Source of the DNA: Pseudorhodobacter sp. MZDSW-24AT
Lineage (GTDB): Bacteria; Pseudomonadota; Alphaproteobacteria; Rhodobacterales; Rhodobacteraceae
DNA length: 64,000 bases
Assembly: GCF_002794355.1 (NCBI RefSeq)
Contig: NZ_PGOI01000003.1
Location: 1 to 64,000 of the forward strand
Direction: 5' to 3'
Below, in pieces: positions 13,320 through 59,198 of the stretch (position 1 is its first letter; every line of letters begins with the position of its first letter). The translations under genes were made by a program, and so were the position numbers. The notes beneath the pieces are model-generated. The model was not told the DNA's origin. It worked only from the letters and a program-made list of their open reading frames with translations, and made no database searches.

Positions 13320-13387
13320 GGGCGGAGGGGGGCGCTGCCCCCCGCGCGTGCCGCGCCCCCCCGGAGTATTTGGAAAAGGTGCAGAGG
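13320..13387. repeat. dispersed extragenic repeat, copy 1
   Basis: Between two convergent genes lies a C/G-rich hairpin (GGGGGGC/GCCCCCC) followed by the repeat core GGAGTATTTGG-AAAAGGTGCAG at 13363-13384. The core recurs at 52849 and, inverted, at 36471 and 52882. Its placement between convergent genes suits a bidirectional terminator or REP-like role. Confidence 0.7.
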
Positions 13388-51700: not shown

Positions 51701-52252
51701 ATGAGGCTGGTGCTGGACGCTTGCGTGCTTTACCCCACGGTGCTGCGCGAGATCCTGATGGGCTGCGCGGCGGCGGGGCTTTACACGCCTGTGGTGTCGG
51801 AGCGGATCTTACGGGAATGGGTGCGGGCGACGGCCAAGCTGGGGCCGGTTCAGCAGGCGTTGGCGGAAGGCGAGGCCGCGCAGCTGCGCGCGCAGTTTCC
51901 GCAGGCGATGGTGCGCGAACAGCCGGGGATCGAGGCACGGCTTTTGCTTCCCGACCCGAATGACGTGCATGTGCTGGCGGTGGCCATTGGCGGCCATGCC
52001 GATGGCATCGTCACCTTCAACGCTGCCGATTTTCCGCGCCATGTGCTGGCCGAAGAGGGGATCGTGCGGCGGGACCCGGACGGCTTCCTCTGGGAGCTGT
52101 GGTCTGCGGAGCCGGAGGCGGTGGCCGGGGTGATTGCAAGGGTGCAGGCAAAGGCGTCACAGCTGGCCGGGCAGAGCTTCACCCGCAAGGGGCTGTTGAA
52201 ACGGGTCCGGCTGAACCGGCTAGCGCGGGCGATGGAGGCCAGCGCCGGATAA
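51701..52252 (+). CDS. PIN-domain protein
   Basis: 183 residues from ATG 51701, with GGAGGG nearby. The PIN nuclease fold is evident: [19 protein letters not shown] (first Asp), [23 protein letters not shown] (Asp/Asn metal site) and a C-terminal helical tail. No antitoxin gene is next to it, and it follows the RNA methyltransferase by 45 bases, a pairing I recall as RSP_2647/RSP_2648 in Rhodobacter. It is therefore more likely an RNA-processing nuclease than a toxin; this is an inference. Confidence 0.85.
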
Positions 52253-52348
52253 GGGGCGCAGGAGCACGGGGCGCGGGCCAGAAAAAGGGCCGGGTGCCCA
52301 TGGCCCCGGCCCGTCTTCAGAAAATCACGTGTCAGAAAATCGCGCCGC

Positions 52349-52732
52349 TCAATTGGTCGGGTTGGCCGGGACGACGGGCGATTCCGGCGGCAGCGGGTCG
52401 ACGGCAGGCACGTCAGCCGGGGTGAGCGGGTCCACCGTCTGGTTCGGCACACCGGGGGTGGGTTGCGTGCTTTGCTGGACGGGGGGCGTGGTGTCTGGCG
52501 CCGGGGCGGCGGGGGCGGTGCCTGCGGTGCCCTCGGACGATTCAGGGACGGTTTCGCCCGTGCGGCCATCGATCTGCCCAGCCGCGCTGGACGGCGGATC
52601 ACTCTCGGCGGCCTCATACCCCAGCCACCAGACAAACCCGATACCGACCGCGATCACCACCGCGATCATGCCGACAAGCGGTCCCCGGTGGCGGCGTTGC
52701 TGCTTTTCGATATTGGTCTGGGGGGCGGACAT
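52349..52732 (-). CDS. single-span membrane protein with Pro-rich periplasmic tail
   Basis: 127 residues from ATG 52732 with AGGAGG six bases upstream. A short basic cytoplasmic part (EKQQRRHRG), one span (MIAVVIAVGIGFVWWLGY, about 23-40) and a Pro/Thr/Ala-rich periplasmic tail (PTPGVPNQTVDPLTPADVP) of low complexity. No recognised domain. Conserved position next to the PIN gene is likely but not shown here. Confidence 0.75.
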   Translation of the reverse strand: MSAPQTNIEKQQRRHRGPLVGMIAVVIAVGIGFVWWLGYEAAESDPPSSAAGQIDGRTGETVPESSEGTAGTAPAAPAPDTTPPVQQSTQPTPGVPNQTVDPLTPADVPAVDPLPPESPVVPANPTN

Positions 52733-52832
52733 GAAGCCTCCTGCATGCTGTTGACTGTGGTTCACAGGGCTAACGCATGAGGTGCGGAGCGGTTCCCACA
52801 CAGCGCCAAGCGATGCGCCGGGGGAAGAGGGC

Positions 52833-52918
52833 GGACGCCTCCGGCGGGGGAGTATTTGGAAAAGATGCAAGTCCACAGGTCTTTGCACCTTTCTGAAATA
52901 CTCCCGCCGGAGGCGTCC
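52833..52918. repeat. 86-bp inverted repeat made of two copies of the GGAGTATTT element
   Basis: The outer arms GGACGCCTCCGGCGGG and CCCGCCGGAGGCGTCC are perfect inverse complements. Inside them lie the copies GGAGTATTTGG-AAAAGATGCAA (52849-52870) and, inverted, TTGCACCTTTC-TGAAATACTCC (52883-52904), around a short loop. A stem of about 38 bp with few mismatches would form in RNA or DNA. It lies after the M48 gene and before the membrane protein gene. Confidence 0.85.
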
Positions 52919-52950
52919 TGCGGGCGCGGCCGGGTGCTGCGGCGCAGGAC

Positions 52951-53637
52951 CTAGCGCGGTTGCCAACGCAGTTCGGCGGCCTCGATCGCCTTGATCCGCT
53001 CTTCGGTGCGGGGGTGGCTGAGGAGCCAGGCGGGCACGCCGCTGCCTGCGTTGTTGGTGAGCGTTTGCAGCTTGCGGAACAGGGATTTCTGCGGGCCGGT
53101 GCCAATGCCGGATTTGACGAGCAAGGCCGAAGCATAGGCATCGGCCTCGAATTCGTCGCGGCGCGAGAGACGGGCCATCAGGGCGGTGGAGATCAGGTTG
53201 GCGATCCAGACGCCCAGAAACGGAATGAAGCGGTTGAGCAAGGCCGAGAGCATGATGAAGACCGCATTCTGCCCGGTGAAATCGATCATCCGGCGGCGGG
53301 TGTGGCCCAAGGCGACATGGCCCAGTTCATGCGCGATCACCGAGGCCAGTTCCTCGGCGCTGACCTCACCCCGGGCCTTGCGGTTCAGGAAGCCGCGGGT
53401 GAGGAAGATGCGGCCATCCGGGGCGGCGAGGCCGTTGACCGCGTCGATTTCATAGACATTGACCTTGATGGTGGGAATGTCGAGCGCTGCGGCCATCCGG
53501 TCGGCCAGCCGGGTGATCGCCGGATCGGTCAGCGGCTGCGACTGCTGATCCAGCATCTTGGCGGTGCGCCAGACGGAAAAGCGCCACATCAAGAGCGCAT
53601 AGCAAATGGCCAGAAGGATGGGCAGGAATTTGATCAT
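52951..53637 (-). CDS. M48 family zinc metalloprotease (HtpX/Ste24-like)
   Basis: 228 residues from ATG 53637. An N-terminal span (MIKFLPILLAICYALLMW) precedes the M48 peptidase core with the zinc motif HELGH (in ASVIAHELGHVALGHTRRR, about 110-128), and a third zinc ligand Glu in RRDEFEADAYASALLVKSG. Short for the family, lacking the second pair of spans of HtpX. Probable role in membrane or periplasmic protein quality control. DedA lies 71 bases upstream on the same strand. Confidence 0.9.
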   Translation of the reverse strand: MIKFLPILLAICYALLMWRFSVWRTAKMLDQQSQPLTDPAITRLADRMAAALDIPTIKVNVYEIDAVNGLAAPDGRIFLTRGFLNRKARGEVSAEELASVIAHELGHVALGHTRRRMIDFTGQNAVFIMLSALLNRFIPFLGVWIANLISTALMARLSRRDEFEADAYASALLVKSGIGTGPQKSLFRKLQTLTNNAGSGVPAWLLSHPRTEERIKAIEAAELRWQPR

Positions 53638-53708
53638 GGGTCGGAATATGGGGCGGCGGCGCGCGAAGGGAAAGGGCTGACGCAAGAAAGCGGCCGCGCG
53701 GCAAAGCG

Positions 53709-54299
53709 TCACTCGGCGCGTTTCGACAGGTGCCAGAGCCACCAGCCAAGGCCCCCCGCAATGGCGCCTGCGGCGAGGAAGCCCAGAATGGAGCCTGCGA
53801 ATTCGGTGGCGGCTTCGAGATTGTCGCCGAAAGTATAGCCTGCGCCGACGTAAAGGCTGACCCAGACCAGTTCTCCGGCAGCGGCGGCGAGGCTGAAGGG
53901 GAGCCAGCCCATGCGGCTGGCCCCGGCGATCAGGTTGGCATAGGGCGCGAGCGGGCTGACGAGCCAGCGGGTGAGGAAGACCGCCCCGGTGCCGCGCCGG
54001 GCCACCTGCGCGCGGGCACGGGCCAGAAGCGGCGCGCGCGCCCCCGTTGCGATGCGGTCGACCAAAGGCGCGCCGCCTTTGCGCGCGGCCCAATAGGCGG
54101 TCTGGTCGCCCAAGGCTGCGCCGGTGAGGGCGGCCAGCGCCACCTGCCAGACCTCAAGATCGTCCGAGGCCGCGAAACCGCCGGCGGCCAGCATCAGCAT
54201 GGAGGCAGGCACCGGCACCCCGATGCAGGACAGGAAGGTGACCAGCGCCACCAAGAGCGGCCCATAGGTGGGCACGGCAGAGAGCAGCCAGTCGGTCAC
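53709..54299 (-). CDS. DedA family membrane protein
   Basis: 196 residues with a GTG start at 54299 that overlaps the preceding stop (GTGA). DedA/SNARE-associated family: CIGVPVPASMLMLAAGGFAA, GDQTAYWAARKGG, and FLTRWLVSPLAPYANLIAGASRMGWLPF are the conserved parts. About five spans. Members take part in lipid flipping and membrane homeostasis. Likely co-transcribed with the gene upstream and the CoxE-type gene. Confidence 0.88.
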   Translation of the reverse strand: MTDWLLSAVPTYGPLLVALVTFLSCIGVPVPASMLMLAAGGFAASDDLEVWQVALAALTGAALGDQTAYWAARKGGAPLVDRIATGARAPLLARARAQVARRGTGAVFLTRWLVSPLAPYANLIAGASRMGWLPFSLAAAAGELVWVSLYVGAGYTFGDNLEAATEFAGSILGFLAAGAIAGGLGWWLWHLSKRAE

Positions 54300-58775: not shown

Positions 58776-59198
58776 ATGAAGCCAGAAGCCTTCCTCCCGG
58801 ATGATTATCGTCCTGCCGAGAGTGAGCCTTTCATGAATGACCGGCAGCTGGAGTATTTCCGCCGCAAGCTGGTGAACTGGAAGCATGAGCTGATGGATCA
58901 GAGCGCGGAAACCTTGGGCAACCTGACCGAAAGCGGCCGCAATGTGCCGGATCTGGCGGACCGGGCCTCGGAAGAAACCGATCGCGCGCTGGAGCTGCGC
59001 ACGCGGGACCGTCAGCGCAAGCTGATTTCCAAGATCGATGCTGCGCTGCGCCGCATCGACAATGGCGAGTTCGGTTATTGCGAGATGACAGGCGAGCCGA
59101 TCAGCCTCAAGCGGCTGGATGCGCGCCCGATTGCGACGATGACGCTGGAAGCGCAGGAAAAGCATGAGCGCCGCGAGAAAGTGCACCGCGACGAATAG
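58776..59198 (+). CDS. dksA: RNA polymerase-binding protein DksA
   Basis: 140 residues from ATG 58776 (GGAGAG seven bases upstream; the usual alphaproteobacterial start MKPEAFLPDDYRPAE). An upstream ATG at 58725 would add 17 unconserved residues. DksA binds the secondary channel of RNA polymerase and works with ppGpp. The coiled-coil region (YFRRKLVNWKHELMDQSAETLG...VPDLADRASEETDRALELR) has the acidic tip DRASEE. The zinc finger is degenerate: only one cysteine (GYCEMTGEPI), the others being Thr/Ala-type replacements, as known for Rhodobacter sphaeroides RSP2654. Confidence 0.95.
   Translation: MKPEAFLPDDYRPAESEPFMNDRQLEYFRRKLVNWKHELMDQSAETLGNLTESGRNVPDLADRASEETDRALELRTRDRQRKLISKIDAALRRIDNGEFGYCEMTGEPISLKRLDARPIATMTLEAQEKHERREKVHRDE

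Follow-up and report, generated by a model that had tools for sequence, protein, structure and literature searches.

Bacterial transcripts end, in the textbook account, at a hairpin followed by a U tract or through the action of Rho, and neither mechanism needs a sequence-specific reader of a tail. Roadblock terminators of the TTF-I or Reb1 type, in which a DNA-binding factor reads a box, are eukaryotic. DNA uptake sequences (DUS) of the Neisseriaceae come, according to PMC3630211, in species dialects and as inverted pairs at transcriptional terminators. Known REP elements have a GTAG/CGTC tag, as described in PMC3733652, that is conserved and unpaired at one end, and PMC8632094 reports other Rhodobacterales motifs, HRC-8-4 and uORFC-8-2. 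The element reported below was not described in the titles and abstracts found by a literature search whose coverage stopped short of older and subscription papers.

Within the window, the whole 64-kb stretch of DNA that was analysed, a large hairpin occupies positions 52833 to 52918 (Table 1). The sequence-only reading had described two copies of GGAGTATTT in opposite orientation enclosed by perfect 16-base arms, and both features were borne out: the copies are convergent, and complementarity between the outer arms (52833-52848 and 52903-52918) is 100% over 16 nt. Its estimate of a stem near 38 bp was about right, with 36 pairs predicted for 52833-52918, interrupted by internal mismatches and by a bulge of 2 nt. 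Inner arms of 23 nt (52848-52870 and 52883-52905) are 83% complementary. Folding of 52810-52940 gave −73.7 kcal/mol compared to a shuffled mean of −54.15 (z of −5.27), and 0 of 200 shuffles were as stable. An Rfam search of 52000-54000 (E values up to 1) returned two matches, both below the gathering score and neither at the element.

Table 1. Coordinates of the paired element, its neighbors, single elements in the window, and examples of a second repeated hairpin
Feature	Position	Strand	Remarks
GC-rich head of + copy, GGACGCCTCCGGCGGG	52833..52848	+	Outer hairpin arm
GGAGTATTT box, + copy	52849..52857	+	
Spacer GGA and tail AAAGATGCAA, + copy	52858..52870	+	
12-nt spacer (loop)	52871..52882	.	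Separates the two tails
Spacer CAG and tail AAAGGTGCAA, − copy	52883..52895	−	
GGAGTATTT box, − copy	52896..52904	−	47-55 nt beyond M48 stop codon
GC-rich head of − copy, GGACGCCTCCGGCG	52905..52918	−	
M48-family peptidase gene	52951..53637	−	Pfam PF01435, E 4.8e-25; start uncertain; 3' end towards pair
Small predicted protein MSAPQTN...	52349..52732	−	Next same-strand gene; without Pfam match
Single element: box, GGA, tail AAAGGTGCAG	13363..13384	+	C-rich head just upstream; between convergent genes
Single element: box, CAG, tail AAAGGTGCAA	36471..36492	−	C-rich head; between two + strand genes
Second hairpin (examples, among others)	L052:1530-1658	−	
Second hairpin	L077:1480-1612	−	
Second hairpin	L078:1536-1666	−	
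Second hairpin	L048:1401-1532	+	

The window holds five matches to GGAGTATTT, compared to 0.03 expected. Besides the two in the hairpin, the matches at 13363 (+) and 36484 (−) each belong to a genuine single element, and a fifth at 58850 was rejected as a chance match because it lacks a tail and lies inside a predicted gene. Examination of 102 GGAGTATTT contexts, some duplicates and chance matches included, resolved the repeat unit into a GC-rich head that runs up to the box, GGAGTATTT itself, a short stretch of free bases (three in these contexts, 2 to 4 in the general form), and a tail about 10 bases long. The main tail in this genome is AAAGGTGCAA, and AAAGCTGCAA and AAAGATGCAA occur less often. 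The box is by no means unique to the window, since the 3.86-Mb genome contains 108 copies of GGAGTATTT compared to 10 of the reversed pattern, and single copies and inverted pairs are both present. The tail-bearing core TATTTNNNAAAGNTGCA had 119 exact matches (reversed control, 0) and 122 when up to one mismatch was allowed (control, 1). Among 103 tail-bearing copies, heads were of the type CCTCCGG in 41, GCTCCGCGC in 23, C-rich in 23, GCTCCGCGG in 6, and none of these in 10. In 290 kb of sequence from this genome, the tail AAAGGTGCAA occurred 84 times within elements and twice outside them (0.6 expected), and AAAGNTGCAA occurred 6 times outside elements (1.8 expected); tails are thus rarely free of the box and belong largely to it. 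The same 290 kb contained 11 copies of GGAGTATTT outside recognized elements, compared to 0.07 expected, showing that degenerate or tail-less copies exist, and these were left out of the counts.

Placement relative to genes was assessed with gene calls from a simple codon-usage caller built for this analysis, not a standard annotation. By these calls, none of the 103 copies in the window's genome lies inside a predicted gene, and only 2 of 251 do so over four genomes. Of the 103, 56 form 28 convergent pairs, 4 form two divergent pairs, and 43 are single, although one copy scored as single (L003) belongs by eye to a third divergent pair. The figure of 28 pairs applies at a gap of up to 110, and 26 remain at a gap of up to 45. 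Nineteen of the 28 convergent pairs lie between convergent genes and nine, including the pair at 52833-52918, between codirectional genes, with none between divergent genes. Counted as units (single copies or pairs) and summed over four genomes, the numbers between convergent, codirectional, and divergent genes were 95, 79, and 12, compared to 16, 99, and 50 for element-free intergenic regions (chi-square P value of 3e-18); the 12 units between divergent genes are single copies. Single copies in the sense orientation place TATTT at a median of 48 to 49 nt beyond the stop codon, and antisense singles between codirectional genes are also near a stop codon, at a median of 38 nt. Sense orientation predominated weakly among codirectional singles, with 13 sense versus 9 antisense in the window's genome (P = 0.52) and 39 versus 19 in a pool of four related, and so not independent, genomes (P = 0.012).

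On an annotated Salipiger plasmid, an element match of 86.5% identity starts 50 nt beyond the purU stop codon, and a second annotated plasmid match has no listed upstream gene within 1.5 kb in a gene table that is incomplete. One default-dialect element matched four plasmid records, three of which list no feature at the matched position, and the fourth is unannotated. The same type of query, one default-dialect element, matched none of the phage records searched, and a phage origin was rejected on this basis. Two explanations for copies that are not downstream of a sense gene were likewise set aside: an Rfam RNA, with no over-threshold match in 16 loci, and a tRNA, with none in 24 loci.

To compare the same sites between genomes, element loci of relatives were aligned to element loci of the window's genome (G000). 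Loci from G000, G006, and G003 were fetched via GGAGTATTT or GGGAGTATTT and are therefore unselected by tail. For G006, 32 of 40 loci could be matched to an element locus of G000, and in all 32 an element was aligned. Of 44 orthologous elements, 41 carried a CAGCAA (AAAGCAGCAA-type) tail where G000 has NTGCAA, while three kept NTGCAA; a further row (L346, scored as "other"), in which both genomes lack a tail, is not counted among the 44. In G003, where 32 loci were used out of 63 matches and 19 of them could be matched, all 23 orthologous elements differed from the G000 tail and were AAAGCAGCAA type. Smaller samples also differed, with 2 of 2 elements in G015 (2 of 6 loci matched) and 3 of 3 in G001 (one CAGCAA and two GATGAA; 3 of 5 loci matched), and in G008 the one matched locus of three yielded no aligned element. 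Head type was kept in 42 of 44 comparisons with G006 (14.4 for shuffled pairings) and in 15 of 23 with G003 (8.4 for shuffled pairings). At orthologous sites, heads and positions stay and tails differ, and this extends to single copies (for example, L050/L334 and L009/L325). The tails of G004 agreed with G000 in 38 of 39 distinct orthologous elements, but the G004 loci (50 used out of 80 matches, with some rows repeated through overlapping loci) were fetched by the G000-dialect tail, so that this agreement reflects shared positions and not dialect purity.

A tree of one locus, M48, joins G000 and G006 as sisters (100/100) and places G003 and G015 at a distance, so the CAGCAA tail that G006 shares with G003 runs counter to the M48 tree. 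Split counts over five loci, which are noisy, were 692 for G000 with G006, 405 for G000 with G003, and 196 for G000 with G004; the last, the dialect grouping, is the least supported. When one stop codon was compared over 16 genomes of the genus (190 nt each), an NTGCAA-type pair was present in G000, G012, and G004, a CAGCAA pair was present in G001, G002, G003, and G015, and eight genomes had no element. At the same stop codon, a decayed pair in G006 retains GGTGCA and reads as a fossil of an earlier dialect. The minor tail AAAGCTGCAA, one change from either dialect, is a plausible step between them.

Tail variation continues beyond this comparison. The G003 genome has 89 GGAGTATTT boxes and 0 cores of the G000 dialect, and some other GGAGTATTT-rich genomes of the genus are alike. 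The tail AAAGCAGCAA is used by G003, G006, G015, and part of G001, and CCAAGATGAAG is used by G008 and part of G001. In two genomes from other genera, 25 of 28 tails contain AAGAGAT (G020) and 18 of 28 contain GAAGAAG (G025), and each motif was confined to its own set among the eight compared. A scan with GCCTCCGGCGGGAGTATTT found at least 118 stretches; the 80 listed were from Rhodobacterales or unplaced Alphaproteobacteria, except for one short Sphingomonadales MAG contig, judging by record titles. As far as these matches reach, head and box are common across the Rhodobacterales and the tails vary. Four members of the genus (G005, G007, G013, and G014) have 2 to 9 copies of GGAGTATTT, below the reversed control, compared to about 100 in several relatives, and lack the element at the stop codon compared over the 16 genomes; G007 and G013 are 82 to 87% complete. 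The box system seems to have been lost or changed in these four.

Our tentative reading, with a probability of roughly 0.45, is that the element is a Rhodobacterales 3'-end box for ending or insulating transcription, whose tail co-evolves with a putative trans-acting factor. It starts from the unit structure, the copy number, the location at 3' ends, the shared orthologous positions, and the difference in tails with heads kept. A role in termination is suggested by position, by pairing between convergent genes, by the layout of head plus TATTT, and by a second hairpin described below; the tail could be read by the factor either as DNA or as RNA. In such a mechanism, the box would mostly sit just beyond stop codons as one copy or as two convergent copies, each facing one direction of transcription. 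RNA polymerase would halt after crossing first the GC-rich head and then TATTT, and the DNA or RNA of the tail just beyond the stop point would be read by the factor. Drift in the specificity of the factor would be followed by nearly all sites of a genome, giving rise to dialects. The hairpin at 52833-52918 would represent two such units in a face-to-face arrangement, separated by a 12-nt loop and located downstream of the M48 peptidase gene.

The more specific proposal, which we hold with somewhat greater reserve, is that Rhodobacterales have a trans-acting factor, so far undescribed, for termination or insulation at 3' ends. Such a factor would read the tail that lies just after GGAGTATTT at about 100 gene ends in each genome, its specificity would switch between close species, and the boxes would then be rewritten in place, so that decayed boxes would preserve the old dialect as fossils. 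The concerted change is hard to explain by gene conversion, because like tails adjoin unlike heads, and by separate drift, because nearly all compared sites changed alike; a trans-acting reader would be the best fit. A factor of this kind would recall TTF-I and Reb1 roadblocks, in which a sequence-specific box also lies just beyond a T-rich stop region, although those terminators are eukaryotic and have a known factor, while the Rhodobacterales reader is putative. If the tail is read in trans, the ends of bacterial transcripts would be recognized by a reader that is sequence specific and evolves fast, and rewriting in place together with a decayed old-dialect site would be a natural record of a regulator and its genome-wide sites changing together. 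The box also offers a practical way to mark where genes end in Rhodobacterales.

Several features speak against termination. The T stretch is short (TATTT), a terminator scan made no call at the site, and the tail is located past the point at which polymerase is expected to stop, where an ordinary intrinsic terminator has no need of it. Heads of single copies are weak, as the 40 nt before boxes were little more stable than shuffles (median z of −0.36; n = 103), the strand bias is weak, and 12 units lie between divergent genes. Of the roles that the sequence-only reading had named, stopping transcription is the best supported.

The competing explanations each account for part of these data. Ordinary intrinsic terminators, in which box and tail are cis constraints on RNA polymerase (a pause, or downstream DNA) and tails drift without any factor, would share with the element a position beyond stop codons, a GC-rich head followed by a T-rich stretch, and pairing between convergent genes. 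The element departs from them in the weak stems of its single heads, its short T stretch, its strict GGAGTATTT, and a conserved, lineage-specific tail beyond. Constraints imposed in cis by a conserved polymerase could hardly be expected to rewrite 41 of 44 tails alike in a sister species, and tails without a box are rare, making this account unlikely. A 3' hairpin formed by the pair that stabilizes mRNA is quite unlikely, even though all 26 close pairs folded better than shuffles (z below −2 in 26 of 26; mean, −6.8), a stability that arises because two like boxes face each other. Within close pairs, the two heads were alike in 7 of 26 (5.6 expected) and the spacer triplets in 1 of 26 (4.7 expected), and no excess pairing was detected inside the loop in four sets of 23, 11, 13, and 7 pairs, which are small numbers. 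With heads, spacer triplets, and loops unmatched in the pairs, the long hairpin is probably a by-product of pairing and not the selected feature; moreover, 43 of 103 copies are single, yet singles also differ in dialect. A rule that paired copies differ at the third spacer base (22 of 26; P = 0.0008) held less well in a second genome (9 of 14) and is not claimed.

Mobile or uptake-related repeats fit less well. The resemblance to REP/BIME elements proposed from the sequence held for the high extragenic copy number, the single and inverted paired units, and the placement near gene ends, and failed for the Y1 transposase and the conserved tag. Palindromic repeats made by a transposase could explain over 100 extragenic copies, their inverted pairs, and the absence of the M48 pair from all six same-genus genomes that share the M48-MSAPQTN gene order (G001, G002, G006, G009, G011, and G013), from which it follows that the pair was gained in the window's lineage or lost in the others. 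However, the search for a RAYT gene found no Y1 transposase (Pfam PF01797) in the window's genome or in 19 of 20 genomes, including the element-rich G001, G002, and G020. The exception, G004, had two Y1 matches and is rated 8% contaminated, and the search detected the family in Escherichia coli and four other positive controls. By eye, the outer end of the head varies (GGAC, GGAT, GGAG, and others), CGTC is not conserved, and GTAG was not seen. Orthologous positions are shared and the tail alone differs in place, again unlike REP/BIME elements with a RAYT. The REP/BIME reading is thus already largely refuted, and we regard it as highly improbable. The chance that the element is an uptake sequence is slimmer still: species dialects and inverted pairs linked to terminators are DUS traits according to PMC3630211, but DUS number in the thousands and are often intragenic, whereas the box has about 120 copies, avoids predicted genes, and is tied to its head and GGAGTATTT. 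Copy number, gene avoidance, and the scarcity of free tails led us to reject uptake sequences.

A second repeated structure accompanies the 3'-end box. It is a hairpin with a GGGGC[AT]TC[GT]AG-CCCC core and a varying outer stem, often followed by GTTGCCACGG. Of 22 copies in the fetched loci, 19 have a GAGTATTT box 82 to 105 nt further on, on the same strand; as loci were chosen for a box, its presence is not independent, while strand and distance are. Two-sided changes affect 5 of 14 predicted pairs, with a small covariation term of −1.02 kcal/mol, and an Rfam search of this hairpin gave no match over threshold. It is perhaps an undescribed 3'-untranslated-region element or small RNA.

Some further arrangements of the box were also observed. 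Head-less partners in pairs (L033, L060, L077, L010, and L008) often read AAGATGAGTATTT; seen from the partner, ATCTT then comes after a hairpin, which is closer to the classical layout of a terminator. On the 740-kb contig C24, positions 368887 to 670172, about 300 kb, are without GGAGTATTT, compared to a genome average of one per 36 kb; this stretch may be an acquired region or a domain effect. At L062:1490-1754 (C25:198489-198753), three copies of the element run in the same direction at a 122-base spacing, as if a segment containing the element had been repeated in tandem.
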